Notes: a model not told the origin generated them from the letters alone. Shown: positions 30,308 to 59,237, counted from the first letter of the stretch. The stretch is 64,000 nt of DNA from Methanolacinia paynteri (GCF_000784355.1 NZ_KN360930.1:1-64000), one strand, 5' to 3'. Numbers and translations: made by a program.

Positions 30308-30332
30308 TGTTTTGTTGATTAGAGACGGAGAG

Positions 30333-39125: not shown

Positions 39126-39171
39126 GACTATAATCTCCAAACGAATTTTTTTACAATGATCAAATTTAAAA

Positions 39172-40623: not shown

Positions 40624-42815
40624 AGGACCACCTCCCCGTCCGATCTCCAGCCTTCTATAACCGGCACTTTCATCAGCCTGCTCCATTTTTCGGCCTGATC
40701 AACTGCTGCCTGGAAGCCGAAACCCGGGCAATAGGGGATCTGCACTCCTCTTGCCTTGTCGGCCGGCCTGAGTCGGGGATATGTGTGAAGAACAAGGTCC
40801 GGTTTTAATTCGTTGATATCCTCTGTGCGTTTTTCAAGCGGGTAATTCTTTTCAATCTCGATCTCCCCCTCATAACGGGATGTGAACGATTCGGAAATAG
40901 GAGAATACGTGAGGCCAATCTTCAGGATCTTCATATCGAGATCATGAGCAAGATCACAGATCCAGTCGACGGATTTGGGATAGGATGTTATCAGCACTTT
41001 CTTTCCTTCAAAATGAGGCTTTAACCGTTCAATCTTCTGCTGGTACTTTTCTTTTTCCTCTGCAATGATCTCCTTCGCAGTATTTTCTTCATTAAAGAGT
41101 TCTGCAATGTTTAACAACCATTCTTCAGATTCCCTGAATCCTGTAGGCAGGGATTTATCGAAGAACGGTACGTCGGAGGCCGAAGAAAGGAGCGTTTTAA
41201 TAGATAGAGAAGTATCTTCCGCGTCGGCAGGGAGATTGAGAGCCGCCCTGTTGAAGTTTTCCAGGGAGCTGAATGGAACTTTACTCAGGAAGCGGGAGTT
41301 TAAGGATATTCCAAGTCTTTTCAGGAGTTCTTCGATGATATCCATCGAGGCTTCATCATTTGTTGCAAGCCATTTCTCCGCAATCACATTGACGGATCTT
41401 TCCTTAGCCTGTTGTCCTCTCTCTCCGGAGCGGATTATTCCCGCAATTGTCCTGTATGCCTCCATGATGCCCTGTGCAAAGTCACCTTTCAGGTTTCCGT
41501 CGACCTCGACAGGTATCAGGTTTACACTTGGGTAATCTTCAAGTATCCCCGATACGACACCGCCGACGTTGTCCCCGATTATTCCGGGAGGGCAGGCAGT
41601 GACGATGAATATATTTTTGTACCCTTTGCCGATCGAGGATTCTATCGTCTGCTTCAGTTTTTCCTCCCCGCCAAAGATGAAGTCCTCATCAGTCATATCC
41701 GTGGAGAAGAACCGCTTCATAAATCCTGCGTCATATGGAAGGTTGTAGATCTGTGCAGAATGCAGTTCCCTGTCAAACAGCTTTTCACAGATCATCAGGA
41801 GGCAGCTCCTCGGGCAGTGCATAACTATTGCAGCATCCGTAATCTGGGCTGCAACAGATACCGCACCTGCAAACGCACAGCCTATGAGGGGGCGCCTGTT
41901 CTTTACGGACGGCGATTTTACCTTAACCTGTTCCATGCGTTTTTTCAGAACCGAGACGTCGAATTTCTTTACATCAGCCAAATCTTCCCGCTGAAGGACG
42001 ATGCTCTCAAGCTCTTTTTCCTCAAGCGGCAGGGCAGGATATAGTCTTTCTTCTCTGTCATCCAGGATCTTCTTAATGTGGTCGGCAATATTTCGGATAA
42101 TTTCTGATTCGGCTGAAGACGGATATTTCTCAATTATTGTGTGCCCTTCTTTCTCGGCACTGGCAAATATTTCGCTACGAGGAATCTGTGTTATAACCGG
42201 TAGCCTTACTGCCTCTGCAAACCTTCTTACCCGGTCGTCTTCTTCCTCCAGTCCGCGGGTATTGTAGATTATACCGGCAACTTTGCTGGTTTTCTCTGTG
42301 AAATTTTTTATTCCTTTAAGGATGTTATTCGCGGCATAGAGCGAGAGATATTCGCCTGAGGTTACGATGAAGACCACATCGGCATACTCGTCACGCACCG
42401 GTACTGCGAATCCCCCGCATACGACATCCCCCAGCACATCATAGATGCTGACATCAAAATATTCCTGGTCCAGGCCAAGCTCTTCGAGAAGCTCAAAGGT
42501 GGTAATTACGCCCCTTCCAGCACAGCCTACACCAGGTTCGGGCCCTCCTGCCTCGACACATGCGACTCCGCCGTGCCCTGTGAATACGATATCCTCAAGG
42601 TGCCTGTCTTCTGGAAGGGCGCATTTGATGTAATCGAGAACAGTTGTAGGGATATTGCCTCCGAGCAGAAGTCTTGTGGAATCATGCTTGGGATCGCACC
42701 CAATCTGAAGAACTTTCAGACCCTTCCCTGCAAGAGCGGCTGATACATTGGCGGAGATCGTCGACTTTCCTATCCCGCCTTTTCCATAGACGGCAATTCT
42801 AATCCCTATCACCAC
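40620..42815 (-). CDS. fused nitrogenase-like reductase: NifH/BchL-type Fe protein plus component 1 subunit
   Basis: The 731-residue protein is a fusion. Residues 1-255 are a complete Fe protein: Walker A GKGGIGKST (11-19), iron-sulfur ligands Cys 98 (GVGCAGRG) and Cys 133 (DVVCGGF), as in NifH. Residues 300-731 are a component 1 subunit with GCAFAGA (Cys 313), HCPRSC (334/338) and TACPPGIIGDN (Cys 408), the three cluster-ligand positions. Normally the ATP-driven Fe protein docks and leaves; covalent fusion is unusual. The start GTG 42815 lies inside the end of the ABC ATPase gene, so importer and reductase are translationally coupled. By analogy with CfbCD and BchLNB the substrate may be an imported tetrapyrrole. 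Confidence 0.85.
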   Translation of the reverse strand: MVIGIRIAVYGKGGIGKSTISANVSAALAGKGLKVLQIGCDPKHDSTRLLLGGNIPTTVLDYIKCALPEDRHLEDIVFTGHGGVACVEAGGPEPGVGCAGRGVITTFELLEELGLDQEYFDVSIYDVLGDVVCGGFAVPVRDEYADVVFIVTSGEYLSLYAANNILKGIKNFTEKTSKVAGIIYNTRGLEEEDDRVRRFAEAVRLPVITQIPRSEIFASAEKEGHTIIEKYPSSAESEIIRNIADHIKKILDDREERLYPALPLEEKELESIVLQREDLADVKKFDVSVLKKRMEQVKVKSPSVKNRRPLIGCAFAGAVSVAAQITDAAIVMHCPRSCLLMICEKLFDRELHSAQIYNLPYDAGFMKRFFSTDMTDEDFIFGGEEKLKQTIESSIGKGYKNIFIVTACPPGIIGDNVGGVVSGILEDYPSVNLIPVEVDGNLKGDFAQGIMEAYRTIAGIIRSGERGQQAKERSVNVIAEKWLATNDEASMDIIEELLKRLGISLNSRFLSKVPFSSLENFNRAALNLPADAEDTSLSIKTLLSSASDVPFFDKSLPTGFRESEEWLLNIAELFNEENTAKEIIAEEKEKYQQKIERLKPHFEGKKVLITSYPKSVDWICDLAHDLDMKILKIGLTYSPISESFTSRYEGEIEIEKNYPLEKRTEDINELKPDLVLHTYPRLRPADKARGVQIPYCPGFGFQAAVDQAEKWSRLMKVPVIEGWRSDGEVVL

Positions 42816-43851
42816 CGTTGTCCGAAGACGGGATGCATTCGATCATCTCTGAAATGCTGGTGCATTCCTTCTCTGAATCTTCCGTATGGATATTCCATAT
42901 GGTTTTTCCTCCGTCGTTATTTATCGCGATACGGATGTCTTCTTCTGTCTCCGTTTCTCCTGCGGCTGTGGCAGATGTGTAGCCGATCCTTTCAAGAGCA
43001 TACAGGGTCCAGATCTTTTCAATCGATTCGGGAGCCGAGAGTGAGAATGTCCCTTTCTTCTCAACAGGAATTGTGAATTCCCCTCTCACTGCGTCGAAGC
43101 TCACCCCGTCGATCTCGAAGGCCGATCCGAAGATGCCTGAGAGTACTAGGTCCTCCGGGACACCGGAGATCATATTTCCCCTTCTGTCTATGATCCAGAG
43201 CTGGTCGGCGCAGCGAATTGCAAGATTCAGGTCGTGCGTGGAGAGGAGGATCGATTTTCCTGTTTTCCTGGCTACAGTCCTGAGAATGCGCATCGTTTCG
43301 ATCTTATGCGGAAGGTCCAGGTATGCGGTCGGCTCGTCAAGGACCATCATCTCCGGTTCCTGTGCAAGTGCCCTTGCGATCATCACCTTCTGCCGTTCGC
43401 CATCGCTCATCTCGTGCATAAAACGCCTTGCCAGCTCTCCCGCACCAACGGATTCAAGTGCCGATATTACGATATCCCTGTCTGAATCCGTGAGTCTGCC
43501 TGCCCAGTTGGTATAGGGAAATCTCCCGAGCGCCACGATGTCAAAAGCAGTCAGGTATCCTGCCTCGACCGGAGTCGTCAGCACCACGCTCAGGGTTTTC
43601 GCCTTTTCCTCGGACGTGTGTTCTTCTATCTTTTTGTCGCAAAGCAGGACTTCACCGCAGAGTGGCGGCTGTATCCCTGTAATGGTACGGATTAGGGTGG
43701 ATTTTCCCGACCCGTTGGGACCGATCAGGCATACAAGTTCACCCCTCCTTAGGTTGAGGTTGAGATCTTTGGAGACTTCTTTGATGATCGTCTTCTGGTT
43801 CCTGTAGCCAATTGTCAGGTTGCTGCAGGTCAGGATCGGATCTCCGATCAT
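42799..43851 (-). CDS. FecE-type ABC ATPase coupled to the nitrogenase-like operon
   Basis: A 350-residue ATPase: Walker A GPNGSGKST, signature MSDGERQK, Walker B MMVLDEPT, H-loop LLSTHD. The second residue of the signature is changed from the usual LSGGE. About 100 residues follow the ATPase core, including a weak repeat-like FTIPVEKKGTF region. ATG 43851 overlaps the permease stop (ATGA). The frame stays open to 44295 but that part lies within the permease gene and is not credible protein. The 3' end overlaps the fused reductase gene by 17 bases. Confidence 0.85.
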   Translation of the reverse strand: MIGDPILTCSNLTIGYRNQKTIIKEVSKDLNLNLRRGELVCLIGPNGSGKSTLIRTITGIQPPLCGEVLLCDKKIEEHTSEEKAKTLSVVLTTPVEAGYLTAFDIVALGRFPYTNWAGRLTDSDRDIVISALESVGAGELARRFMHEMSDGERQKVMIARALAQEPEMMVLDEPTAYLDLPHKIETMRILRTVARKTGKSILLSTHDLNLAIRCADQLWIIDRRGNMISGVPEDLVLSGIFGSAFEIDGVSFDAVRGEFTIPVEKKGTFSLSAPESIEKIWTLYALERIGYTSATAAGETETEEDIRIAINNDGGKTIWNIHTEDSEKECTSISEMIECIPSSDNGGDRD

Positions 43852-44921
43852 GTCGTCACACCCCTTCCGAATTTCGTTCCGCGGACGATCACCCAGATCA
43901 CGACCGGTGCGCCGAATAGGGCAGTGATTGCATTGATTGGCAGCACAATGTCCGTTCCGGGTAGATGGGATATGATATCGGTGCAGAGTGCGATGATTCC
44001 GCCGACGATTATACACCCGGGGACGAGAATACGGTGGTCGGCGCTCACGAACATGGCCCTGCACAGGTGTGGAACAGCAATTCCAAGGAAACCGATAGGG
44101 CCGCAGAAGGCCGTAACCACTCCTGCCATAAGCGCTGTGTTGGTTATGATGAGTATTCTGGTCGTTTTGTAGTTCATTCCAAGGCTCTCGGCGTACTGTT
44201 CTCCCAGCAGGAGGGCATTGAGCGATTTGACCGTGCAGATCGAAAGGATGAATCCTACAAGGAGGAGGGCCACCATGATCGGGACCTGCCCCCATGTAAC
44301 TCCCGAGAAACTGCCGAAGGTCCAGGCGGTATAAGAGTGCATGCTGGATTCATCTGAAAACTGTAGGAGGATGGTGACTATTGCACTGCTTATATAGGAG
44401 ACCATTATTCCGAGAATAAGGATCGTGATGTTGCTCTTGATCTTTGACGAGATGATCAATATCAGGGCCAGTACTGCAAAGGATCCGATTATCGCAGCAA
44501 CCGATATGCTCAGGTCGCCGATGAACCCGATGGTGGCGAATATCGCACCTACACCGCAGGCGCCTGCAGAGAGCATAACCAGTGCAACACCGAGACTCGC
44601 TCCCGAGCTTATACCGAGGATATACGGATCGGCAAGCGGATTTCTGAAGAATGTCTGCATGAGGAGACCGGCAAGAGCAAGTGCCCCGCCTGCAAATACG
44701 GCGGTTATTGCCTTGGGAAGCCTCCAGTCCCAGAAGATATTCTCCCACGTTGTTTTTACATCGCCTCCGGTCAGCATTTTTACAAAAGCTTCCAGGGGAA
44801 TGTTCACCGATCCTGCCAGAAGGTCAAGGATAAACAGAGCAATAAGGACTATGAGGATCACCGGTAGGACTAAGGTAAGTCTCTTCAGACTGTCCCCGCT
44901 ATCACTGCCGGAGAAATTCAT
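43848..44921 (-). CDS. FecCD-family permease coupled to the nitrogenase-like operon
   Basis: A 357-residue permease with the family signature MQTFFRNPLADPYILGISSG (about residues 88-107) and GIAVPHLCRAMFVSADHR near 285. It is a paralogue of the permease at 28284-29306. It works with the binding protein upstream and the ATPase downstream, and both junctions overlap by four bases. The ligand class is metal chelates: corrinoids, hemes, siderophores. Genes that follow in the operon point to a tetrapyrrole. Confidence 0.87.
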   Translation of the reverse strand: MNFSGSDSGDSLKRLTLVLPVILIVLIALFILDLLAGSVNIPLEAFVKMLTGGDVKTTWENIFWDWRLPKAITAVFAGGALALAGLLMQTFFRNPLADPYILGISSGASLGVALVMLSAGACGVGAIFATIGFIGDLSISVAAIIGSFAVLALILIISSKIKSNITILILGIMVSYISSAIVTILLQFSDESSMHSYTAWTFGSFSGVTWGQVPIMVALLLVGFILSICTVKSLNALLLGEQYAESLGMNYKTTRILIITNTALMAGVVTAFCGPIGFLGIAVPHLCRAMFVSADHRILVPGCIIVGGIIALCTDIISHLPGTDIVLPINAITALFGAPVVIWVIVRGTKFGRGVTT

Positions 44922-46177
44922 GCACTTTCCTCCGTCTGGGTGGCACCTATATTTTTGTAATAATATAATTCATGATCCGGCAGGAGCTCGGGGTGGAATA
45001 TCTTTACGAGATCCGCAAGTATGACGTCAGGTTTGATTATTCCCGACTGCCAGTAGTCATCGCCGCCGTATTCATTTTCCCTTGCATTATAGTTGTAGAC
45101 ATTTCCTGTCTGGTAGGCCATGAATTTAGAATACCTGGAATCGTATGAAAGAAGATCAGCGGCGTCGTTTCCATACCCTGTATTCATCCAGAAATCGGCA
45201 TCCTGTGCCTTTTCATAAACAGATTCAAAATCGAGTGCAATGGAGCCGCTTTCGTTATTATCCGCATAGAGATAGTCGGCACCTGCATCGGCGAAGAGTT
45301 TTGCAACATAGCTGTCTCCACCCGCTGCATACCAGGTTCCCTGGAAATCTATTCCTGAAAATACAATGGGTTTTGTCCCGGCACTTTCGGCCAGGTCCCT
45401 GATTGTGGTATAGTTTTCCTCAATTCTGTCAAAGACCTCGTTGGCTGTTTTTTCTTTATTGTAAAACAGGGCGAAGAACTTGATCCATTCGGCACGCCCG
45501 AGGGGATCGTTTTCCATCCAGTCCGAGACTACTGCAGGAGTTAAGCCTGCTTCCTCCAGTTTGTCGCGGTTATCGTATTCATCCGTGTTGCTGGCAGAAC
45601 AGAAGACGACATCCGGATCAAGCTCTATCATCTGCTCGACCTTGAGCTGACTCTCCATCGACATCGCTCCGCTTCCGATCTCAAGCAGTTTGCCTTCGTC
45701 AGCGAGCTGTTGGTACTCGTCATCGTAAACAAGATCGATCCCGTTATGTCCTTTGATCGAGGAGGTCTCGTTCAGTTCTTTCAGGTGTGGAAGCTGTGTT
45801 GTTGAAAGAGTGATTATGGAATCTATTGGTATAGTGATAACTTCTGCATCCTGGTACCCTGATGGTATCTCCTCTCCCTCCTGGACGAGAAGGTATGTCA
45901 GGTCCTTCGAAGTTCTTCCCCACGGGTCGTTTACCTGGACTACTTTATATGTCCCGTGATATTCCACAGTATATCCTGTTGCATATTCGGGATATGCCTT
46001 GTCAGTAAAGAGATCTTCTGTATATGCGGATTGTTCCTGAACGGTTCCCGCGGACTGGCCATTGTCAGCACTGTTTAGAGAGAGGGAGATCCCCGTTATA
46101 GCAACCGCGATAATTATTGCCGCAACAAGTACAGCGTATATTATTTTTTTGTGTTTTTCATCTGCCAATTCATTCAC
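44918..46177 (-). CDS. membrane-anchored metal-complex-binding protein (FecB/BtuF-like, long form)
   Basis: A 419-residue extracytoplasmic solute-binding protein with an N-terminal uncleaved anchor (about residues 11-33) in place of a lipobox. It belongs to the class III binding proteins (QLKVEQMIELDPDVVFCS is the usual inter-lobe strand) but is longer than BtuF by about 100 residues at the N-terminus. The frame opens at GTG 46177; TTG 46168, five bases behind AAAGGTGA, is a better-placed start. It is the first gene of the coupled run binding protein-permease-ATPase-fused reductase-NifK-like and may also be co-transcribed with cbiZ, 78 bases upstream. Confidence 0.82.
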   Translation of the reverse strand: MNELADEKHKKIIYAVLVAAIIIAVAITGISLSLNSADNGQSAGTVQEQSAYTEDLFTDKAYPEYATGYTVEYHGTYKVVQVNDPWGRTSKDLTYLLVQEGEEIPSGYQDAEVITIPIDSIITLSTTQLPHLKELNETSSIKGHNGIDLVYDDEYQQLADEGKLLEIGSGAMSMESQLKVEQMIELDPDVVFCSASNTDEYDNRDKLEEAGLTPAVVSDWMENDPLGRAEWIKFFALFYNKEKTANEVFDRIEENYTTIRDLAESAGTKPIVFSGIDFQGTWYAAGGDSYVAKLFADAGADYLYADNNESGSIALDFESVYEKAQDADFWMNTGYGNDAADLLSYDSRYSKFMAYQTGNVYNYNARENEYGGDDYWQSGIIKPDVILADLVKIFHPELLPDHELYYYKNIGATQTEESA

Positions 46178-46255: not shown

Positions 46256-47392
46256 TCAAAAACCGCTTTTCACGCACCAGGAGCTTAGCCTGATCCAGTT
46301 GTCGATAATCGGGTCACGCTCGTTCATCACGTAGCTGAAGTCCGGGGAATTCCTGACGCCTGCCATCTCGGGAAGGGCCTTCATTATGGAAAATGCTGTT
46401 TTTTTGCCTGCATTTTCCGGGATAAGGCCCCAGTTGATCTCATCGACGATATGCAGAATTGAGGCGGTCATTGCAACAACGGAAGGGTTCTTTGAAAAGT
46501 CACGAAGGTTTTTAATGAACAACTCTTTTTTGTTCTCGCCTTCAAGCGAGGATGCGGTCTGCCAGTATTTTTTCTCGTCAATACCAAAGCGTTCCAGCCT
46601 GATCAGCATATCACGCTGGTTGTCAGGGTTAAGGCCGGTCTGCCTGTCAAGCGCCTCGGTTGTTGCATCTATTACGCATTTTGCGACAAGTTCCCCGAGT
46701 TTTGAGTGTTTTCCTGCCCATGTTATGACATTCGGGCTGTGCATGTTGGATATTACGCTGATCTGGTCTGTTCCCGATCCTGTGGCAATTCCTGTCGAAT
46801 ACCTGCTCGGGGCCATAAGCTGCTGGATTGCAACCGTTTTTGCTTCGGTTGCAGTCATTATCATCCTGCTTAATGCATGGGCTGGAAGCCTGGAACTTAT
46901 AATGATAATCGTGTTGATGGTCCCGCCTACGTATACCGAATTTCCGTCCTCTTCATGCCAGGATGCGGGATCTCCCGCTCTTCCGCCGTTTACTTCTATC
47001 CCGGCGGTGACTATTGCTGTTACTTCGAGATCACGAAAACACCGGCTGCTTATCGCGGCATTTTTCATCTTTGCCGCCGTCATCATCGCTGCAATTCGAC
47101 CTGGATTCAATCCCAGCCTTTTGGCATGTATTTCAGTATATGCCTCGACACTTCCTCCTTCCATGTCATGGCCGCAGTGCCCCCTTGTCTGATCCGGCTC
47201 ATGGTTGAAGACAGCCTCGAGATTTTCCTGGTAACCTCCGTTTACATATGAAGTGGTGATGCAATTCCTGTTTTCAGGTAGTTTTACAACTATGGTATTG
47301 TTATTCCGATAGATCTTCTCGCCGCTGCCGGTTTCATAGATCATCTTCAGTTCGGTAACTGGTTCTCCGGGTTTATTCTCATATTCTGCCAA
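46256..47392 (-). CDS. cbiZ: adenosylcobinamide amidohydrolase (CbiZ-like)
   Basis: A 378-residue protein with the CbiZ core: AIVTAGIEVNGGRAGDPASW near residue 128, GGTINTIIIIS near 154, TATEAKTVAIQQLMAPSRYS near 177 and GIATGSGTDQ near 199. CbiZ cuts the aminopropanol side chain from (adenosyl)cobinamide to give cobyric acid, allowing salvaged corrinoids to be rebuilt. The protein has about 150 extra C-terminal residues beyond the core. The start is TTG 47392, nine bases behind GAGGAG; an ATG at 47344 is an alternative. Upstream lies a 290-base gap; downstream is the second importer. Confidence 0.83.
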   Translation of the reverse strand: MAEYENKPGEPVTELKMIYETGSGEKIYRNNNTIVVKLPENRNCITTSYVNGGYQENLEAVFNHEPDQTRGHCGHDMEGGSVEAYTEIHAKRLGLNPGRIAAMMTAAKMKNAAISSRCFRDLEVTAIVTAGIEVNGGRAGDPASWHEEDGNSVYVGGTINTIIIISSRLPAHALSRMIMTATEAKTVAIQQLMAPSRYSTGIATGSGTDQISVISNMHSPNVITWAGKHSKLGELVAKCVIDATTEALDRQTGLNPDNQRDMLIRLERFGIDEKKYWQTASSLEGENKKELFIKNLRDFSKNPSVVAMTASILHIVDEINWGLIPENAGKKTAFSIMKALPEMAGVRNSPDFSYVMNERDPIIDNWIRLSSWCVKSGF

Positions 47393-47682: not shown

Positions 47683-48666
47683 TTAAAAATGGAGAGCTCT
47701 TCTTTGCCGGGAAATTCTGTTCTCGATCTCTTCTGCCGACATTCCCGGAAGTTCATGTGTCACAAAATCCGGTGAAACGAAATCAACAATCTCCCTGCAC
47801 CTCTCTGACGAAAAGGGCCGGTGCTGGTCTACATTCTTCAGGAGTTCGTATATGCACGAATATTTCTCTTCAAGTGTCATCCTGGGATAATTCTCAGGTT
47901 CCTCCATCTCGTTCTGATAATTGCCGGAGGTGCTAAGGTGGAAATGAATGCCGGCTATTTTTTCGAGAATATTCTCATCAAGCTTTCCTAATAATTCCAG
48001 CACTATATCGATTGCTTCTTCTTCGTCATTACAGGAACACGTGGCGTTCATGAGATGACCCGTGTCCAGGAGAAGTTTCCAGTTTTTAAACTCAAGTTTA
48101 TCGACAAATTTCGCCGCAGCGTCCGAATCGAGAAATGTCAGACCCGGATACCACAGGTTTTCGATATAGATGTCAAATGGAGGCTCTCCGCCCGGGAATC
48201 GTGATGCAACTTCATTCAAAAATTCGGCAGTTCCTTCAAGAATTTCTTTGTCTGAATAAGGCTGAATTTTTTTGAAAGCAGTGCCGATCTCCGTATAAGC
48301 TGCATGAAACACACCATATGCAGGTTTTAAAACCGATGCATATGATATGGCCTCGCAGAAGTTTGATACAACTTCATTGCGACTTTTCCCGCCGTAAAAA
48401 TATTTCAGTGATTCATCAGGGATTTCTTCAGGAACCCTGAAATTTTCATCTTCCCACAACCTGTACCATCCCATGAAAGAAGGGAGATGGACTGAAGATA
48501 CCAGATCAGCAGGGATCTCTGCCGGTACTTCTTCGAAATTAACCAGAAGTTCTATTCCGTCAAGCTGGTGTCTTTGCACAAAGCTTCTGACATTGTCCCA
48601 GCTTTTATCGAATTTGTTCAGATCGTATTCGTAAATTGAAAAACTCATTTGTTCTCTGTATTTCAT
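47683..48666 (-). CDS. xylose-isomerase-like TIM barrel, possible CbiR-type corrinoid enzyme
   Basis: A 327-residue protein of the AP endonuclease 2/xylose isomerase-like barrel superfamily. Landmarks are DGIELLV (about 36), IYIENLW (about 166), LLLDTGHLMN (about 195) and IAGIHFHLSTSG (about 237), which supply Glu, Asp and His ligands for metal. The cobamide-remodelling enzyme CbiR belongs to this superfamily and does the same reaction as CbiZ. The position here, coupled to the chelatase D subunit (ATGA) and next to cbiZ, makes a CbiR-like role plausible. Family membership is clear, the specific function is inference. GGAGATG precedes ATG 48666. Confidence 0.65.
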   Translation of the reverse strand: MKYREQMSFSIYEYDLNKFDKSWDNVRSFVQRHQLDGIELLVNFEEVPAEIPADLVSSVHLPSFMGWYRLWEDENFRVPEEIPDESLKYFYGGKSRNEVVSNFCEAISYASVLKPAYGVFHAAYTEIGTAFKKIQPYSDKEILEGTAEFLNEVASRFPGGEPPFDIYIENLWYPGLTFLDSDAAAKFVDKLEFKNWKLLLDTGHLMNATCSCNDEEEAIDIVLELLGKLDENILEKIAGIHFHLSTSGNYQNEMEEPENYPRMTLEEKYSCIYELLKNVDQHRPFSSERCREIVDFVSPDFVTHELPGMSAEEIENRISRQRRALHF

Positions 48667-50603
48667 GTAGGCATCTCCTTTAGTACAATATTACCGACAG
48701 ATCCTGCCAGTTTACTGCTGTCGAGTTCATCGAGACGGAGGTAGATGGCGTCGAGTTCAAATGCGAGGTCCACGGCGAGGCCCATTCTCGGGAAGCCTTC
48801 CTCAGTGTCAACAACAACATATTTTATTTTCTGTCCGGTGACTTTTTCAGCTGCTTCCTTCAGCTCCTCGTATGAATTTTTACCGGATTCGGAGGTGTTC
48901 GCCCTGCCGTCCGTCAGGATAACTACCGTTTTGGAGTCCATAGATTTTGAGTATCGTCCCTGTGTCAGGAGTTTTGCCGCTTCTATAAGTCCTTTTGAGA
49001 GAGGTGTCCTTCCACCTGTCGGTATCTCTTTCAGCAGTTTGTACGCGAGATCGGTGCTCCTGGTCGGGGGAAGAAGAAGGGTTGCCTCGTTTTTCCTGAA
49101 TATCATAAGGCCGACCATGTCTCTCTTCTGGTACGCGTCGTTTAAAAGAGAAAGAATGGCTCCTTTCACTGCCACCATTCTCTTCCTTACACCCATCGAT
49201 CCGCTGGCGTCGACAAGGAAGAGTATGACATCTCCGGTCTTTTTTTCCCGGATCTTCTCCCTCAGATCGACTTTGTCTACCTTAATTGCGAGCCCTTTTT
49301 TATCTCTCTTAACCTGAAATGGAGCAGCTGCTCTCAGTGAAGCATCGATTGCGATGTCGTTTTTATTTCTGTCCTGCTGTCTGTAGGAGAAATAATGGCC
49401 GCTCTTATCCTTGCTGATATTTCGTCTCCTGCGGCCATTGCTTGCTTTCTTCGATTTGGATCTGCCCTTCTCGTCAAGAAATTCGATGACGCTGAAGACT
49501 GAACCGATATCGAATACCTGTTCCGGTGGCGGCAGATTATTTATGTTTTCGTTATTTCTGTCGGAATCTTCCGATTGATCCCGATTCTGTTTGTCGTTCT
49601 CATCACTTTGATCCATCTCCTGGTTCGGTCCTGAATTTTTTTGCCTGTTATCCTGCCTGCCTTCATTTTCCTTACCCTCCTCTTTCTCTTCGTCTTCATT
49701 ATCATCCTCATTGTTTTGGGTATCGGGGTTCTGGGGAGGATTCCCGTCGGGAGGGCTTCTTCTCCTGTGCTCTAGGGTCATTAAAGCGGCCAGTTTGATA
49801 TCTTCGAAAACGACATCATCCCTGCCGTCGATTGCAGCCAGTGTTTTTGCCGTTTTTGCAAGCGCGATATCTCCTCTCTGCCCGGAAACGTTCAGTTCGA
49901 TGCATAATTCCGAGATCATATCGAGCAGCGATTCGGGAATCATTACATAGGGAAGTCTTTCCTTTGCCTTTCTGATATTTTCCCTGGTCTCATTGATTTC
50001 GTCGGAATATTCTTTTAAAAACTGAACAGAGTCTTTCTCGAAGGCAAGACAGTTTCTGATTATTTTGGATCTCTCACTTTCATCTTCTATCTTTTCGGTT
50101 TCAATACAGATATCAAACCGATCAAGAATCTGGGGAGAAAGTTCTCCCTCGTCAGGGTCCATTGTGGCGGTAAGAATATACCTCATACTGATTTTTTCTG
50201 AAAATCCATCCCTTTCCAGTATTATACTGCCCGTATCCGCGGTGTTTAGTATCCCGTGAACTATCTTTTCATCAAGCAGGTTGATGTCGTCTGCAACAAC
50301 AATCTGGCAGTCGCTTTCGGCCAGGATTCCTTTTACAATTCCTATATTTCCTTCAGTTATTGCCTTTTCAATATCAATTGAGCCGAACAGCCTGTCTTCT
50401 GTAGTGTTCTGCGGGACAATCCTGATCCGCTTATCATCTGTTATTGTAGATGCTGATCTTGCAAGAACAGTCTTTGCAGATCCACAACTGCCAGTAATAA
50501 GCAGCCCTTTAATATCTTCATTTACAAGGGTGCAAAGTATCGCCTTCTTCGCGGTCTCATTCCCTACTATGGCAGGGAACGGATAGTTAACAAATTCGCT
50601 CAC
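48663..50603 (-). CDS. ChlD/BchD-type chelatase subunit (AAA+ plus VWA)
   Basis: The 646-residue protein has an N-terminal AAA+ domain (residues 10-280, P-loop GSCGSAKT), an acidic Asn/Asp/Glu-rich linker (about 285-370) and a C-terminal von Willebrand A domain with a complete metal-ion site, DASGSMG, TGGRTP and TDGRAN. This is the D-subunit layout of magnesium and cobalt chelatases, which bridges the I-subunit ring and the large CobN/BchH subunit. GTG 50603 overlaps the I-subunit stop (GTGA), and its own stop overlaps the TIM-barrel start. The large subunit is probably the CobN-like protein at 34050-37796, encoded apart. Confidence 0.88.
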
Positions 50604-51640
50604 TTTGCATAACTCTCCGAGATAACGGAATCAATCTTGTCAAATTCCAGTTTTGCCTCTTCGAACGGAAGTTTCCTCATACGGTGCGGCAGTGCCAGTC
50701 GTGCGGCTTTTATGAGATCTTCTCTCATTATTTCATCTCTTTCATCAAGGGCTGCAAAGGCGACGGAAGTCTTTACGAAGGTAATATCGGACCTGTGCCC
50801 GTCGACTCCAAGGAAGAGCGAGATCTTCACCGATGTTTCAAGTAGAAGATCGTCGGGCTCCATCTCTTTCAGGATCGATTTCGCATTCCCTATGCGATCC
50901 CGGATCTCCTGCTGCATCGGTTCATACAATTCGCAGAATGCGTGAGGATCTTTCTCAAATTCAAGCCTTTTTCTGATGATCCCGGTCCTTGTTTTGATCT
51001 CTCTTTCTCCTTCCACGTTGACCGAGAGACCGAAACGGTCAAGAAGCTGCGGGCGCAGGTCTCCTTCTTCGGGGTTCATTGTCCCTACGAGCATAAAGCG
51101 GGCCGGGTGCGAGTATGAAATTCCTTCACGTTCTACGAAGTTTGTACCCATCGCTGCGGCATCGAGCAGGAGATCCACGATATGATCGTCGAGAAGATTG
51201 ACCTCATCGACATAGAGAATATTCCCGTTGGCTGAAGCAAGAACACCGGGCTCGAATTTCTTTTTCCCTTTTGTAATGGCATGTTCGATGTCGAGCGTTC
51301 CCGCGACACGATCTTCTGTTGCACTTATCGGGAGTTCTACCACACGCATCCTGATATATTCATATTCTGGAGCTTCACCCGATTCGATCAACTCCCTGCA
51401 TGAAGGACAGAGATACCTTGTCTGTCCTGCTTCGCAGTGGAAGATGCAATCTTTAATTACCTTTCTTTCAGGGAGAAGATCTGCTATTGCTCTTACTGCC
51501 GTTGATTTTGCAGTCCCTTTTTCTCCCTTGATCAGGACTCCCCCGATTGAAGGATTGACTACGTTTACGAGGAGTGCATCCTTCATATTATTCTGCCCGA
51601 CAATTGCAGAAAACGGGTAAACAGGGTTATCTTCAGTCAT
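50600..51640 (-). CDS. ChlI/BchI-type AAA+ chelatase subunit
   Basis: A 346-residue AAA+ ATPase: [15 protein letters not shown] at the start, P-loop [10 protein letters not shown] (about 36-45), Walker [13 protein letters not shown] (about 141-152), arginine-finger region [17 protein letters not shown] (about 188-204). Two Cys pairs (CIFHC and CPSC, residues 65-80) suggest a small metal site, found in some archaeal and cobaltochelatase members. It forms the ATP-driven hexamer that remodels the large subunit. ATG 51640 has GAGGGA upstream and lies inside the end of a possible small upstream gene. Confidence 0.88.
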
Positions 51641-51842
51641 AATTTCCCTCAATTAAGGCGATTACGATTGCTGCATTCTTCAGATTCACTGCTGCTACAA
51701 ATCCGTTTGAATTAAAAGAATTGAGCCTTAGACCTCCGGCTGTTTTAAATATCAGCAGAGGATCTTTGCAAAAATTAATATTTTTGAAAATATTCCCGGT
51801 CAATTTAAACACCTGCTTTTCAACTGTAATAAAAGCTGACAA
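51633..51842 (-). CDS. possible small protein coupled to the chelatase operon
   Basis: A 69-codon frame whose end overlaps the ChlI-type gene by eight bases. Its C-terminal half ([33 protein letters not shown], given as the last 33 residues in two parts: [33 protein letters not shown]) has balanced composition and strand-like alternation. No SD site precedes ATG 51842 and I recognise no family. It could be a real leader gene of the chelatase operon or a chance frame. Confidence 0.4.
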
Positions 51843-52191
51843 AATTTTGGATAAATATATTTTGTGTTTGAGAAAATTTATTTTTGTTGATCGGGAAATG
51901 TTTTTTTCTTAATATGTTCAAGCGGCTCAGGCGTAAATATTTTAAGCATTTTACTATTTGTCTATTAGGATCTTTAGAATTATAAAACAAATAAAAAAGA
52001 TATATTTAAAATTAATTTGATATATTGTTCAGATATTCTGTCAGGTGATCACTATAATAGTTATCTCGTCAATAATCTGTTTTTTTGGTTATCGGGGTTA
52101 TTTTGGGGAGCTGATTTTTGAATACAATTTGAATATGGCAAAGAGGGCAGGTCAGTAAGAGTTCTTTTTGTCTTCCGAGAGGTGCAATTAT
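51843..52191. promoter_or_regulatory. divergent promoter region, chelatase operon and pilus ATPase
   Basis: This AT-rich gap of about 350 bases separates the leftward chelatase operon from the rightward secretion ATPase gene. Several TATA-like stretches (for example around 51998-52003 and 52020-52025) occur, but none can be assigned firmly. I see no gene and no GC-rich structured repeat. Confidence 0.35.
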
Positions 52192-53964
52192 ATGAAAATT
52201 CCACGGCTATCGCTTCCGGTAAATCCGGGAAAAGAAAAAACCACTGCCCGGAACGCCGGCGAAAACGTAGATGATGTAAATCGTCATGAAACCGGTAATA
52301 CAGGTCTTTTTAAGTTCAGACCCTCAAGAAAAGAGGCCGGAGAAGGAGAACCAGCCTTCTCCTTTAAAACAAAAATGAAAGTAAAAATTAAAACCGGTCC
52401 TGATGGGAGGTCCGATCATGGTAAAGAGATAGTTGAATCCGTCGATCACGAAAAAAGCGTTGTCGATGAAAAAATCGATAAAATCCTGAAGGATTATCTG
52501 GATACTGAATACTTACTCCCGGAATTGACAGAGGAAGAGGTTGACTGGGTTGTTGAGCGATACTGGCTGAAGCCGCCCTTTTCATATGTAAAGATTGTGA
52601 AGAACTGGGAGTTCGATCTGACTTACACGATTATCGAGCCGAAGATAACGAAAGAGGAGCTGATTGTTCTTGAAGAGACTTATGAGTACCTTAGAACTGC
52701 TCTGGTATTTGATTCTCCTAAACCGAAAGGAGATCTGACAGTTGATCCTGAATTTGTCAGGAAAGCTATAAAATCGTTTAATCCATCGATAAGCGATGAA
52801 AGGACTGATATCCTGATCTATTACCTGCAGAGGAATTTTACCGGTTACGGCAAGCTCGATCCGATGATGAATGATGAAAACATCGAGGATATTACCTGCA
52901 ACGGTGCAAACATCCCATTGTATATCTTCCATCGCAAGTATTCCAATCTCAGGACGAATCTCGTTTTCGACAATATTGAGCTGAATAAATATGTTCTCAA
53001 ACTTGCCCAGAAAGCGGACAAACAACTCTCCCTGACAACGCCGATAATCGATGCCGCTCTCCCGACAGGTGCGAGGGCACAGATAACGTACAGTGATATA
53101 GTATCGTCGAAAGGAAGTTCCTTTACAATCCGAAAATTTAAGACAGATCCCATGACTCCTGCGGATCTTATCTCGATTGGGACATATGATGCAGAGTTAA
53201 TGGCTTTCATCTGGCTTGCAGTTGAGAACAACAAGAGCATAATTATTGTAGGAGGCACTGCATCGGGGAAGACGTCGACGATGAATGCCACATCCTTCTT
53301 CATTCCGCCGATTGCAAAGATTGTCTCTATAGAGGATACGAGAGAGATCCAGCTTCCGCACGAAAACTGGCTTGCCATGAGAACAAGAGATACGGGTATC
53401 TCTGCCACGGAATCCGATGTCGATATGTTCATGCTTCTCAAGGCAGCCCTGAGGCAGCGTCCGGAGTATATAATCGTGGGAGAAGTAAGGGGTTCAGAAG
53501 CACAGACATTGTTTCAGGCTATGAATACCGGCCATACTACTTATTCGACCCTTCATGCCGGCGGCGTAAGTGAAGCCATCAACAGGCTTACACATGAGCC
53601 GATAAATGTTCCGCGTGTCATGTTCGGTGCACTCGATCTTATGATTATCCAGGGACTTCAGTTTGATGAAGGGCATGGCTTCCGGCGCTGTCTTTCGATC
53701 AATGAGATGATCGTGAATGACGGGGATATCAGGTGGAATGAGATCTATAAGTGGGATCATATAAATGATAAATTTATTAAAAATCAAAAAAGATCCAGGA
53801 TTTTGGATGATATTGCGTATACTCACGGGTGGAATGACGAGACACTTGAGTACAATCTACAGATAAGAAAAAGCATGCTCGAGCGTTTTGTCGAGAAGAA
53901 AATAAGTGACAACCTCCAGATAAGTCATTTCATAAACGAGCTAAGAAAGACCTGCAACAAATAA
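52192..53964 (+). CDS. type II/IV secretion (pilus assembly) ATPase
   Basis: A 590-residue ATPase of the GspE/TadA/ArlI group. After a polar, Lys-rich, probably disordered N-terminus (about 80 residues) and an N-terminal domain, it has Walker A GGTASGKTST (about 354-363), the Asp box SIEDTREIQLP, Walker B EYIIVGEVRG and the His box TGHTTYSTLHAG. It powers assembly of a type IV pilus at the cytoplasmic face, with the TadC-like membrane protein at 63598. ATG 52192 lies eight bases behind GAGGTG. The pilins and the platform gene lie downstream. Confidence 0.9.
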   Translation: MKIPRLSLPVNPGKEKTTARNAGENVDDVNRHETGNTGLFKFRPSRKEAGEGEPAFSFKTKMKVKIKTGPDGRSDHGKEIVESVDHEKSVVDEKIDKILKDYLDTEYLLPELTEEEVDWVVERYWLKPPFSYVKIVKNWEFDLTYTIIEPKITKEELIVLEETYEYLRTALVFDSPKPKGDLTVDPEFVRKAIKSFNPSISDERTDILIYYLQRNFTGYGKLDPMMNDENIEDITCNGANIPLYIFHRKYSNLRTNLVFDNIELNKYVLKLAQKADKQLSLTTPIIDAALPTGARAQITYSDIVSSKGSSFTIRKFKTDPMTPADLISIGTYDAELMAFIWLAVENNKSIIIVGGTASGKTSTMNATSFFIPPIAKIVSIEDTREIQLPHENWLAMRTRDTGISATESDVDMFMLLKAALRQRPEYIIVGEVRGSEAQTLFQAMNTGHTTYSTLHAGGVSEAINRLTHEPINVPRVMFGALDLMIIQGLQFDEGHGFRRCLSINEMIVNDGDIRWNEIYKWDHINDKFIKNQKRSRILDDIAYTHGWNDETLEYNLQIRKSMLERFVEKKISDNLQISHFINELRKTCNK

Positions 53965-55047: not shown

Positions 55048-55773
55048 TCAGATGATATCTGATGCTTTCAGGTAACCATCCCAGTATACTGTTCCGTCGA
55101 TGCCTGAAAGAATTCCCTGTCCATCGCCGTTTGCATATACCGCTCCGCTCTGGAATGCAGTACTTGCTCCGGATCCGGTGTTCCTGTGCATTCCGAAGCC
55201 GAGTGTCGGAGGACCTGTTGCTGTCTGGGGTTTGAAATACTCGAAGAAAAGGATGAACCTGTCGCCGGTTGTCAGTATGGTATCTCCGGGGCACATGCCC
55301 TCGCCCGTATAATCGAGACTCGTGAATTTCATCATACGGCTTGTATAGAATTCAGCTGGCTCATATGCAAGCGTGCCTGTTCCGGGATTGTTATAATAGA
55401 ATCTCAACCCGCCGCTGGCTCCTTCCCCGCCAACATAATATTTGCTCCACGGGACATCGTTGTATGTCATGTACGCCTCGCCGCCACCACCGAAGTCACT
55501 GCCGTATATGTAAAATTTAAGCTTCTCGAGGTCAAGCGAGCCCCCCGTAACTTCAAAGATCAGGCCGACGAATCCGTCATCAAGTACCATATCAGAACCG
55601 CCGGGACTGATGCCCACGTACCTAACCGAAGCGGGAGTCGCCGTGGGAGCATCTCCGATCATACCGGTTCCAAACCCCGAAACTACTGCGGCAATGATAA
55701 TCGTCACAACTAGCATCAGCATAACTCCTACGACAGGGGATACTGCCTCTTTTTTTGTATTTGTGTTTACCAT
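55048..55773 (-). CDS. archaeal type IV pilin-like protein, operon position 6
   Basis: A 241-residue pilin: leader VNTNTKKE, then AVSPVVGVMLMLVVT and a hydrophobic helix to about residue 35. A soluble domain follows, rich in Gly and Tyr with many aromatic turns (for example GGGGEAYMTYNDVPW). It is the last gene of six and its start overlaps the preceding gene by seven bases. It ends SGIDGTVYWDGYLKASDII, unlike the other five, which end in short KDV or GxVxL-type strands. Confidence 0.85.
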   Translation of the reverse strand: MVNTNTKKEAVSPVVGVMLMLVVTIIIAAVVSGFGTGMIGDAPTATPASVRYVGISPGGSDMVLDDGFVGLIFEVTGGSLDLEKLKFYIYGSDFGGGGEAYMTYNDVPWSKYYVGGEGASGGLRFYYNNPGTGTLAYEPAEFYTSRMMKFTSLDYTGEGMCPGDTILTTGDRFILFFEYFKPQTATGPPTLGFGMHRNTGSGASTAFQSGAVYANGDGQGILSGIDGTVYWDGYLKASDII

Positions 55774-56489
55774 TTGACCGTCACATCCTTGTCGAATATT
55801 GCTGTGCCACTGGGTTTATGGACAACCGATATGTGCACGATAGATCCTTCTCCAAAACCGTATTGGCTGTCTTCCGTATCGAATCCCAGAAATTTCTCAG
55901 GATACATGAAGAAGTAAACGCAGTTCGGCTCGAAGTTGCAGACACCGAAGTACTGTGTATTCTGGTAACCATGTGTACCATCCCCACCGGCTGTATTTGG
56001 AAAGAGTGAATAGCCATAACCGTTTACTTGTGGAGTAAAAGGGTAGCCTTCAACGGTGTCATCTACGTCTACTGAAGTGTCCGACGATGTGGACCCTTCC
56101 ATAAATGGGGATATGGAACCGTCAAGAGTATGCTTGATTACTCTGCCCCCGTTATCAAGGGTCGTTCCGCGATAAGTATCGGGAACCGTATATGTGGTTA
56201 TAACCTGAAGATCTTCAGTGGGGACGGTGTCTCCGGCAAGGACACGTAGTTCGATCGGATAACCGTCGGATTTTGAACCTGTGTCTCCCGCTTTTATTGT
56301 AAACTCATACGACACAGTAGGAGATTTCTCCGTAGTATCGACAATGCCGGAGGAAAAACCGCTCACTACCGCTGCAATTATTATCGTTACAACGAGCATC
56401 AGCATCACTCCCACGACAGGAGACACGGCCTCTTCCTCCCAGAGAAAGGAAGGATTGTTTTTCGCCCTTTTTTTTATCTTTGCCATCAT
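55767..56489 (-). CDS. archaeal type IV pilin-like protein, operon position 5
   Basis: A 240-residue pilin with a longer basic leader (about 20 residues, MAKIKKRAKN...) before AVSPVVGVMLMLVVT. The outer domain includes DTVPTEDLQVITTYT and ends GTAIFDKDVTVKW, closely like the end of the first operon gene (GKTIYDKDVVATW). These similarities show that positions 1 and 5 belong to one subtype. ATGATG gives two possible starts. The gap to the previous pilin is 15 bases, the largest in the operon. Confidence 0.87.
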   Translation of the reverse strand: MMAKIKKRAKNNPSFLWEEEAVSPVVGVMLMLVVTIIIAAVVSGFSSGIVDTTEKSPTVSYEFTIKAGDTGSKSDGYPIELRVLAGDTVPTEDLQVITTYTVPDTYRGTTLDNGGRVIKHTLDGSISPFMEGSTSSDTSVDVDDTVEGYPFTPQVNGYGYSLFPNTAGGDGTHGYQNTQYFGVCNFEPNCVYFFMYPEKFLGFDTEDSQYGFGEGSIVHISVVHKPSGTAIFDKDVTVKW

Positions 56490-56504
56490 ACAATGCCATC
56501 TCCG

Positions 56505-57167
56505 TTACTGAAGAATAATCGTTCCAGACTGGATCTGCTTGCTGCTGATGGTATCGTAGATTATATACTCGATAGGAACGTTGTACTGGGCTTTGAACGT
56601 ACCCGACGATCCTTCAGGTGTCCAGGTAAGAAATCTTCCTTTTTCTATGGAATCGTCCGTAGCGAGAGTGCTGTCGTAACTGTCATCCGCAACAAGCATG
56701 AACGTGTCGCCGACTCCGACAATATCCGACATTCCGGGAGAGACGGCAAAGTAGGTGGAATTTCCGGCCTTGTTTTTATAAAGCTCAAGACTGTTTCCCT
56801 CCTCTACAGCCGCATCAGAAGAATTCAGTACAGTGCCGGAGGTGAATTTCATCGAACTATCGCCTTTATTGAGTTCAATCATGATGTTGTCGAGCGATAT
56901 CGGTTCTCCGCCGCTTAGACGGAAAGTGAACCGGTTGTTGTTACGGGGACTGTCCGAAACATTATTCGTCTTGTCAGCATCTGTAATCTGGACGTCGTAT
57001 CCTACAGCTATCTGTGATTGTGGTGCGGTCTTTTCAGAATCTACAAGTGATCCCGAGAGCGAAGATACGATCGACGCAATTATGATTGTAACTACAAGCA
57101 TCAGCATGACCCCCACGACAGGGGATACGGCCATGTCGTTTCCTTTTCCGTTTATCTTCCGAATCAT
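56505..57167 (-). CDS. archaeal type IV pilin-like protein, operon position 4
   Basis: A 220-residue pilin: leader IRKINGKGND, then MAVSPVVGVMLMLVVT. The outer domain has SGGEPISLDNIMIELNKG, GDTFMLVADDSY and a terminal SGTIILQ strand. It shares the last features with the pilin at 30974-31600 (GDKFMLYADACY, ATGKLVLQ), so the two loci hold members of the same subtype. The start overlaps the preceding stop by four bases (ATGA). Confidence 0.87.
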   Translation of the reverse strand: MIRKINGKGNDMAVSPVVGVMLMLVVTIIIASIVSSLSGSLVDSEKTAPQSQIAVGYDVQITDADKTNNVSDSPRNNNRFTFRLSGGEPISLDNIMIELNKGDSSMKFTSGTVLNSSDAAVEEGNSLELYKNKAGNSTYFAVSPGMSDIVGVGDTFMLVADDSYDSTLATDDSIEKGRFLTWTPEGSSGTFKAQYNVPIEYIIYDTISSKQIQSGTIILQ

Positions 57168-57835
57168 ACTACAGTCACCATACCTTTATATATGCTCGTC
57201 TGACTGGGCGTGTAAATTATATTGACTTCTACTGATGAACCCCTGCAAAAGCCGTATTCCAAAAATTCGTTATCATCGATATCCGATGTCGTAGTGATTC
57301 CGAAGATTGCAACCGCCGTGCCGAAATCATCGCCTGTGCTTAACACATCGCCTGCACTGAACGTGTATTCGCCGAAGTTTGTGCCGGAATCACCCGGACT
57401 TCCCACAGCCAGGTTGTTTAAGTACGGAATCTTTACATCCTGGTCGCTGTAGCTTAATTTTGATGCCGAAATTGCAGGGGTTCCCTGTGTTATCGAACCG
57501 CTGAGCATCTCTTTTCCGTTGGTGCATGTCGAAGGCGAAGTATAGTACGACATGATCTGAATGTCATTTGATGGAATACTGTCACCACCCAGGTGTTTGA
57601 TCAGCATGACATACTGGTCCTTTGTGTCGCCGCCGTTCGAGATTATACTTACGTCAAGCGAAGCACTGGGCGCAGATGTAGTTGAATCAGCCGCACTTCC
57701 TGCGAATACCGCCACAAATGAGGCAATAATAATTGTAACCACAAGCATTAGCATCACCCCGATTACCGGCGATACTGCAAAATCATTATATGAAATATCT
57801 TTTTGATTGTTGTTTTTTTCAATTCTTTTTTTCAT
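57164..57835 (-). CDS. archaeal type IV pilin-like protein, operon position 3
   Basis: A 223-residue pilin with a 19-residue polar leader and FAVSPVIGVMLMLVVT. The outer domain carries DSIPSNDIQIMSYYTS, KIPYLNNLAVGSPG and a final TSIYKGMVTVV. It resembles the pilin at 30333-30977 (PTKDLEIITYYT, RVPYLNDLSVG), again pairing the two loci. Overlaps on both sides are four bases, so translation is coupled. Confidence 0.87.
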   Translation of the reverse strand: MKKRIEKNNNQKDISYNDFAVSPVIGVMLMLVVTIIIASFVAVFAGSAADSTTSAPSASLDVSIISNGGDTKDQYVMLIKHLGGDSIPSNDIQIMSYYTSPSTCTNGKEMLSGSITQGTPAISASKLSYSDQDVKIPYLNNLAVGSPGDSGTNFGEYTFSAGDVLSTGDDFGTAVAIFGITTTSDIDDNEFLEYGFCRGSSVEVNIIYTPSQTSIYKGMVTVV

Positions 57836-58578
57836 ATTACACTTCCCACAAGATTTCCTGTCGATATAATCGAGCCTGATGCATCATCCACTATCGAGTA
57901 AGTGGTCTTCGAGCTGACCTCGAACCATCCGCTGGAGTATGGATTTGCCGCGTTGCCACGTTCTGCAACGTAATAAACGCTTCCGAATTTATCCCCGTCT
58001 TCGACGGAGTACTTGTCAGCGAGAACGATGAATTTCTGTCCTGGTTCAATTATGAGATTTGATGCGGATCTGACAATTACTGAAGTTTCACCTATCTCAC
58101 CTACGCCGGCCGATCGTGCCGGAAGCTTTGCAAAGCGGTAATTCTTGTATTCCTTCTTCTCTGAATGTTCTAAGACGGCTGTTGTAGCCGTAGGACCATC
58201 ATCAATGATCGACTCTGACGGAAGATCCCTGTATGAAACCGCTGCTTCATGCCCTTTAGACGTGCCAATAACAACTCCAGATGAATCAGTTACATTCGAT
58301 ATGCCTGATTCTCTGAGATTCAGGCTGATCTCATCCAGCCTGATTGTGTCTCCTCCGAGATTCTCGAAAACAAGCCCGATCTTGCCTGATTCTCCCATAT
58401 CTCCGGCCATAACTCCTGCGTATCCTATCTGAACCGCCGGAGCGGATTTCGTGTCCGAGAGCATGCCCATCCCGAAACCCGAAACGACTGCTGCAATGAT
58501 GATCGTAACGACAAGCATGAGCATTACACCTACAACAGGAGATACCGCGTTTTCATTTGTTCGAATCGTTTTCACCAT
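57832..58578 (-). CDS. archaeal type IV pilin-like protein, operon position 2
   Basis: A 248-residue pilin: leader VKTIRTNEN, then AVSPVVGVMLMLVVT. The outer domain contains GLVFENLGGDTIRLDEISLNL and LIIEPGQKFIVLADKY, the same subtype as position 4 and as 30974-31600. The start overlaps the first pilin stop by seven bases. Confidence 0.87.
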   Translation of the reverse strand: MVKTIRTNENAVSPVVGVMLMLVVTIIIAAVVSGFGMGMLSDTKSAPAVQIGYAGVMAGDMGESGKIGLVFENLGGDTIRLDEISLNLRESGISNVTDSSGVVIGTSKGHEAAVSYRDLPSESIIDDGPTATTAVLEHSEKKEYKNYRFAKLPARSAGVGEIGETSVIVRSASNLIIEPGQKFIVLADKYSVEDGDKFGSVYYVAERGNAANPYSSGWFEVSSKTTYSIVDDASGSIISTGNLVGSVI

Positions 58579-59237
58579 GTAGCCACCACGTCTTTATCAT
58601 AGATCGTCTTCCCGCTGGGGACGTGTATAATAGTTACATGAACTATCTCATCGCCTGCGAAACCATACTCCGAGATATAGTCATCTCCATCAGTATCGAA
58701 TCCGAGGAAATAGGATCTGTCGAACTGGATGCTGCTTCCCGCACTCAAAACTGCAGTACCAAAAGTTCTGTCTGCCGTTTTCGTGCTGACGACATCACCA
58801 TTGTTTGTTGTCTGCGGAGTAAACGGATAATCCGGGATGATTGTTGTGTTTGTAATGAGATCGTTCGCGTCTATTGGATCAAGGGAACCGTCAATCGTAT
58901 GTTTGATGATCTTCCCCGCATTAGCAACGCTTGTTTTCATCACTACATCGGGACAGGTGAATGAACTGATGATCTTCAGATCTTTTGTTTTCAGACTTTC
59001 CCCCCCGAGATTCTCAATTACAGCATACTTCGAAGTACCTGTGGAGGATGCCGAAATCGAAACGTCAAGTGATGTCGAGGGGGCTGTCTGTGTCGAACTG
59101 ACAATACCTCCCGCAAAACCACTGACAACTGCAGCAATTATGATCGTTACGACCAGCATCAGCATCACACCGACCACCGGAGAAACAGCTTCTTCATTGC
59201 ATGCAGGCAATTCTGCTTTCCTGCTTATTTTTTTCAT
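58572..59237 (-). CDS. archaeal type IV pilin-like protein, operon position 1
   Basis: A 221-residue pilin and first gene of the operon. I place the start at ATG 59237, nine bases behind GGTGGAG; the frame opens at GTG 59252. The leader KKISRKAELPACNEE precedes AVSPVVGVMLMLVVT. The outer domain includes ESLKTKDLKIISSFT, SIQFDRSYFLGFD and the end KTIYDKDVVATW, the subtype of position 5. Confidence 0.87.
   Translation of the reverse strand: MKKISRKAELPACNEEAVSPVVGVMLMLVVTIIIAAVVSGFAGGIVSSTQTAPSTSLDVSISASSTGTSKYAVIENLGGESLKTKDLKIISSFTCPDVVMKTSVANAGKIIKHTIDGSLDPIDANDLITNTTIIPDYPFTPQTTNNGDVVSTKTADRTFGTAVLSAGSSIQFDRSYFLGFDTDGDDYISEYGFAGDEIVHVTIIHVPSGKTIYDKDVVATW

Follow-up and report, generated by a model that had tools for sequence, protein, structure and literature searches.

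Nitrogenase-superfamily functions described so far concern N2, chlorophyll precursors, F430, and organosulfur compounds, and the characterised [4Fe-4S]-only nitrogenase-like enzymes (DPOR, COR, and CfbCD) reduce tetrapyrrole rings. Among chelatases, CobN is the large subunit of the CobN-CobS-CobT cobaltochelatase of the aerobic B12 pathway, and the ChlID pair is the ATP motor of metal insertion. The CobN homolog HmuS removes iron from heme in an NADH-dependent reaction (PMC12583661), and the same 2025 study called the role of archaeal CobN homologs unclear. Two papers (PMC3087415; PMC9227772, citing Rodionov) had noted that CobN occurs together with ChlI/ChlD-type partners in various species, methanogens among them. 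Such CobN-ChlID pairs are already known from methanogens; the new part, in the gene island described here from Methanolacinia paynteri (GCF_000784355.1; 2.79-Mb genome, 98% complete), is their coupling to a nitrogenase-like reductase. The island lies in a 64,000-nt stretch (NZ_KN360930.1:1-64000; hereafter, the window).

The island combines, in a gene order conserved in other genomes, a class I chelatase set with intact motifs, a BtuFCD-type importer, a CbiZ-family enzyme, and a NifH-NifD fusion with a NifK-like partner; the reductase belongs to a clade of its own, and its bacterial relatives lie beside cobalamin riboswitches and corrinoid genes. We see about even chances that the island serves to import, remodel, and re-metallate corrinoids and includes an ATP-driven nitrogenase-like corrinoid reductase. 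The fuller proposal, that an undescribed nitrogenase-like class (NifHD plus NifK-like) reduces corrinoids with ATP and in some methanogens joins an anaerobic CobN-ChlID cobaltochelatase that rebuilds salvaged corrins, is offered tentatively. The genes concerned, by window position, are as follows.

34050-37796, + strand: CobN-type large subunit (1248 aa), on the strand opposite to the operon and facing its end
38277-39140, - strand: CbiK-like protein, with His207 (CbiK numbering) kept as H229
39343-40623, - strand: NifK/BchB-like subunit with a single cluster-type Cys; its GTG start overlaps the NifHD stop
40620-42815, - strand: NifH-NifD fusion (731 aa), an Fe-protein domain followed by a nitrogenase component-1 domain
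42799-43842, - strand: importer ATP-binding cassette ATPase, FecE/BtuD-like, with a C-terminal extension
43848-44921, - strand: FecCD/BtuC-type permease (best NCBIfam match BtuC, below cut-off)
44918-46177, - strand: BtuF/FecB-type substrate-binding protein (Peripla_BP_2)
46256-47392, - strand: CbiZ-family adenosylcobinamide amidohydrolase (Pfam PF01955, 196.8 bits; cut-off, 27)
47683-48666, - strand: AP-endonuclease-2-type triosephosphate isomerase (TIM) barrel, weakly CbiR-like, with a 4-nt overlap with the ChlD stop
48663-50603, - strand: ChlD-type AAA+/VWA subunit (646 aa) with an intact metal ion-dependent adhesion site (MIDAS) and a 4-nt overlap with the ChlI stop
50600-51652, - strand: ChlI-type AAA+ motor subunit (350 aa) with a Cys insert (C69/C73/C82/C85)

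Protein families were scored against the curated cut-offs of Pfam and NCBIfam, and the reductase proteins fell below every such cut-off of the nitrogenase superfamily. In the NifHD fusion, C98, C133, and the P-loop of the Fe-protein domain are invariant, as are the cluster-type C313, C338, and C408 of the D domain. The NifK-like subunit keeps one of the three nitrogenase P-cluster cysteines, the invariant C31, and has Ser or Ala for Cys at the N102-S103-P104 site. An arrangement of 3+1 Cys suits a single [4Fe-4S] cluster as in COR, and the residues conserved here fit a predicted cluster of that kind at the D/K interface, with no P-cluster. With DPOR (BchLNB) and COR (BchXYZ), the island enzyme has in common an Fe protein with a D/K pair, the three D cysteines and one candidate K ligand, and the predicted fold of the K-like subunit; the top eleven fold matches of the predicted NifK-like structure (mean predicted local distance difference test score, 80.6) were DPOR BchB. 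The Fe-protein half dominated the fold matches of the fusion, which added little. It differs from both in its fused NifH and NifD, in a corrinoid-linked context without chlorophyll, and in scores below the cut-offs of BchL (213 versus 345), BchB (66 versus 490), BchN, BchX, and BchZ. CfbC was the best-scoring family for the NifH domain (NF033200, 325.3 versus 402), but this score and that for CfbD (TIGR03282, 36.3 versus 268.4) were below cut-off as well; moreover, the Cfb system has no K subunit, and the true CfbA and CfbD are encoded elsewhere in the genome. A K-subunit tree placed the HD-fusion family in one clade across methanogens, Clostridia, and Treponema (Shimodaira-Hasegawa-like approximate likelihood ratio test, 99). 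No published description of a NifHD-NifK reductase was recognised in a literature search, which did not reach subscription journals.

Bacterial relatives of the reductase connect it to corrinoids. Cobalamin riboswitches on the same strand were found upstream of the TIM barrel, NifHD, and NifK genes in Sporobacter, 166 bp before NifHD in Peptococcaceae, before a BtuF/C/D-type set, NifHD, and NifK in Treponema, and, as a weak match, upstream of the HD-fusion operon in 'Ndiopella'. Related split HDK sets behind a same-strand cobalamin riboswitch occur in Phascolarctobacterium, Sporomusa, another Negativicutes genome, and a Bacillota metagenome-assembled genome (MAG). None was found at four further bacterial fusion loci (L056, L060, L063, and L071) or at the Dialister locus (L120), and the count was zero among six control loci with other nitrogenase-type genes. 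The neighbours of bacterial reductases include a BtuB-like receptor (closest to the B12 receptor model but below its cut-off), BtuFCD, the adenosyltransferase CobA, CobS, and CbiZ; CobA also stands beside the archaeal paralog in genome G207. At L112:1628-7478, a cobalamin riboswitch precedes what appear, as read by eye, to be genes for methylmalonyl-CoA mutase, a B12-dependent enzyme.

The NifHD fusion was present in 19 of 232 genomes of Methanomicrobiales, representing 6 genera, and the fetched loci share the order [CbiZ]-ChlI-ChlD-[TIM]-[CbiK]-importer-NifHD-NifK. CobN adjoins on the opposite strand in 10 of the 11 main-cluster loci that extend far enough, the exception being G113. Most neighbouring genes of the island overlap or are <80 bases apart (larger gaps of 290 and ~200 bases precede CbiZ and the CbiK-like gene, respectively), and we read them from these overlaps as a single operon. 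Since ChlI, ChlD, importer, NifHD, NifK, and CobN alone remain in the most divergent locus (G197, ~40% identity), these are the core, and CbiZ, TIM barrel, and CbiK the accessories. Parts of the set recur in Clostridium, Treponema, and Negativicutes; in Clostridium tetanomorphum and Treponema, the importer, CbiZ, CobN, and ChlI/ChlD are clustered at a locus separate from NifHDK. Because 9 of 12 reductase-bearing genomes also have CbiD, auxotrophy did not separate salvage from synthesis and was rejected as a test of import-only function.

The motor subunits ChlI and ChlD are real, translationally coupled genes, and a chance origin of the chelatase set is excluded by Pfam and NCBIfam E values and by synteny in ~15 other loci. 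ChlI has a Walker A motif (GEKGTAKS at aa 43), and its matches to TIGR02442 (466 bits) and TIGR02030 (400 bits) fall short of the respective cut-offs; neither subunit reached the chlorophyll-type families (BchI-ChlI, 399.9 versus 466.95; BchD-ChlD, 387.4 versus 499.55). C82 and C85 are invariant in nine ChlI homologs, and all homologs that are complete around C69/C73 have this pair too, C. tetanomorphum included, so the Cys pairs are a trait of the family and not special to the organism. In ChlD, the MIDAS (DASGS at 465, followed by conserved Thr and Asp) is intact and Walker A and B are degraded, as is expected for a ChlD. An original prediction, made from the window's sequence, had described both subunits correctly, down to the two Cys pairs and the intact metal-ion site. 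Its coordinates for the set (48663-51640) hold for ChlI and ChlD, except that position 51640 is an in-frame ATG and ChlI runs to 51652. The CobN-type subunit that it counted in the set is real but lies outside those coordinates, and at 930.7 bits against TIGR02257 (cut-off, 822.05) it is not the distant homolog that had been supposed.

Island CobN resembles the large subunit of CobN-CobS-CobT in being full length and above the TIGR02257 cut-off and in its active site. It scored 710 bits to Mycobacterium tuberculosis CobN (7c6o), and CobNs were its nearest solved structures by sequence, followed by ChlH and then HmuS. The HxGxHG motif is present as HLGTHG at 542-547 and is conserved in the island clade, and the second active-site position is Asp throughout that clade, as in cobaltochelatases. 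In HmuS and BchH, this position is His, as seen in Prevotella and Aureibacter HmuS; in HmuS, it stands within the motif LSLDHxxEFMGG (PMC12583661). The HmuS/BtuS heme de-chelatase of Bacteroidota is comparable as a CobN-superfamily protein among tetrapyrrole uptake genes in an anaerobe; however, HmuS has membrane anchors and its loci in Prevotella and Aureibacter are without ChlI/ChlD, whereas ChlI and ChlD are kept in the island. In the CobN tree, the island proteins form their own clade apart from HmuS, with C. tetanomorphum and Treponema CobN as sister. Because CobN carries Asp like cobaltochelatases and the motor genes adjoin, the comparison favours metal insertion by CobN-ChlID over HmuS-type removal, a direction that we infer from sequence. 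Compared with CobN-CobS-CobT, the island has ChlI/ChlD-type motors, a CobN in a separate clade, a host that inserts cobalt early, and a context of import, CbiZ, and a nitrogenase-like reductase.

Other CobN proteins were seen in the course of this comparison. A second CobN of the host (L033:8635-12333, contig C35) falls in a different clade; its active site has three Cys in a row (GCCCYF) where other CobNs have SDD or DDD; GCCCYF also occurs in CobN members from Sporomusa and Methanosarcina KYL-1. This three-Cys site could possibly be a soft-metal site, perhaps for nickel. A 1.9-Mb Methanomethylophilaceae MAG (G240, L065) gave 12 CobN matches, corresponding to approximately ten separate CobN genes. 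A radical S-adenosylmethionine gene directly follows CobN in C. tetanomorphum (L141:8982-10025; SPASM-type by NCBIfam) and, as read by eye, in Phascolarctobacterium (L099:19101-20138) and Dialister (L120:17557-18606).

The host encodes its own B12 and F430 pathways. A contiguous anaerobic B12 cluster with CbiD was identified on contig C32 by family search and sequence inspection, its genes reading as CbiA, CbiMNQO, CbiE, D, C, H, G, L, and T; CfbA and CfbD are together on contig C46. Since both pathways are encoded elsewhere, the island is additional to B12 and F430 synthesis. Nothing in the host genome exceeded the CobF cut-off (TIGR02434; best, 26.7 versus 195.8 bits), and no CobW, CobG, or CobST was recognised adjoining island CobN. 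The original prediction was right that this anaerobe has a class I chelatase set and does not use the aerobic pathway, whose operation it had named as counterevidence; the set serves neither aerobic B12 synthesis nor chlorophyll. A further split NifH/D/K-like set on contig C12 (L034:9870-12808), below nitrogenase cut-offs and without obvious corrinoid neighbours, was considered as CfbCD and rejected, as NCBIfam identified it as another split nitrogenase-like set and CfbD is on C46.

Two chelatase systems had also been proposed to stand side by side, but the CbiK-like protein does not bear this out. Glu89 is an active-site residue of CbiK, and its equivalent in the window protein is Arg. Alignment with Salmonella CbiK (1qgo), in which His145 and His207 are catalytic (PMC7689651), showed that His145 is replaced in each of eight archaeal proteins from the island and that His207 alone is kept; the Sporomusa homolog retains the active-site residues. 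Without His145 and Glu89, the protein is unlikely to be a second active chelatase. Among solved structures, heme-binding FetB comes nearest to it, and tetrapyrrole binding is the more likely role of the CbiK-like protein over chelation.

For the TIM barrel, metal-site-type residues are conserved among 7 homologs; a structure search returned no matching solved structure for this protein or for the binding protein, so no ligand could be read from either. A second BtuFCD-type importer of three genes (27049-30187, - strand) lies outside the conserved core and is possibly related; its ATPase (27049-28284) has a long C-terminal extension and 411 aa. The island shares with CbiZ/CbiR cobamide remodelling a CbiZ above the Pfam cut-off, an adjoining TIM barrel of the CbiR superfamily, and the riboswitch of bacterial relatives, and differs in its coupling to a reductase and a class I chelatase. 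A new ring, metal, or direction of reaction had been thought likely for the chelatase; the NifHD, NifK-like, importer, CbiZ, and CbiR-like genes, which that claim left out, point to corrinoids and not to a wholly new ring.

As a corrinoid system, the island could work as follows. The BtuFCD-type importer would bring in foreign corrinoids, from which the CbiR-like hydrolase and CbiZ would remove the nucleotide loop and aminopropanol arm. The NifHD and NifK-like enzyme would carry out ATP-driven, low-potential corrinoid reduction, most likely of cobalt ahead of adenosylation and less likely of the ring. CobN, powered by the ChlI/ChlD pair, would then load corrin rings that come in, or end up, without metal; the metal inserted would most likely be cobalt, and the re-metallated product would enter the host's own anaerobic B12 pathway.

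Several points weigh against this explanation. Metal-free corrinoids are not an established natural substrate of anaerobes. The TIM barrel scored 24.3 bits against CbiR (NF041277), far below the cut-off of 105. An Rfam search of the window returned no match of any kind, riboswitches included, and upstream regions of the operon and CobN shared only A/T-rich words, with no dyad common to >2 sequences; the corrinoid link therefore reaches the window by homology. Several reductase-bearing genomes are without CobN; the two modules can thus occur apart and may act on different substrates, and the reductase must be able to act alone. Lastly, nickel limitation induces a CobN in Methanothermobacter, suggesting nickel for at least one archaeal CobN (PMC12350162).

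This last result keeps alive, at least for another CobN clade, a metal-scavenging explanation in which CobN strips Ni, Fe, or Co from imported F430, heme, or corrinoids and the nitrogenase-like enzyme is the reductant. Both host CobN loci adjoin BtuFCD-type importers, Methanothermobacter marburgensis makes abundant CobN1 only when Ni is limiting (PMC12350162), in Methanosarcina barkeri the source of Fe/S affects two CobN homologs (PMC10846266), and HmuS sets a precedent by taking iron out of heme (PMC12583661). Nevertheless, HmuS does so with NADH (PMC12583661), its loci are without ChlI/ChlD, and the Asp of island CobN, its position in the tree, and the cobalamin riboswitches that mark reductase relatives all make scavenging rather unlikely for the island.

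It is quite unlikely that the island makes a new tetrapyrrole cofactor, for which NifHD-NifK would reduce the ring and CobN-ChlID would serve as the chelatase; the product could be, for instance, a relative of F430 or sirohydrochlorin that is reduced further or carries a different metal. The ring reductions of DPOR, COR, and CfbCD, the best fit of the NifK-like model to DPOR BchB, and the separate CfbA/CfbD, which makes the island set an extra one, are consistent with such a cofactor, whereas importer genes are among the core, CbiZ turns up repeatedly along with genes for corrinoid salvage, and the cobalamin riboswitches occur in bacteria that make no F430. Late cobalt insertion, as in the canonical aerobic-type route of de novo B12 synthesis, would agree with a CobN above the curated cobaltochelatase cut-off and with the statement that ChlID can replace CobST (PMC9227772, citing Rodionov et al.). 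Set against the early-insertion cluster with CbiD, a genome with nothing above the CobF cut-off, and the lack of recognisable CobW, CobG, or CobST beside island CobN, this route is very improbable.

Elsewhere in the window, two arrays (55048-59252 and 30312-31600) hold at least seven paralogous genes with the N-terminal motif AVSPVVGVMLMLVVTII (archaeal pilin-type); the first is near a secretion ATPase at 52168-53964.

The island links one archaeal CobN clade to motors, an importer, cobamide-cutting enzymes, and a reductase, and thereby to a testable substrate class. Cultured relatives exist (C. tetanomorphum, Sporomusa, and Phascolarctobacterium), making tests possible. If the reductase acts on corrinoids, these would be a new substrate for the nitrogenase superfamily, and anaerobes would be spending ATP on the reconditioning of B12-type cofactors.

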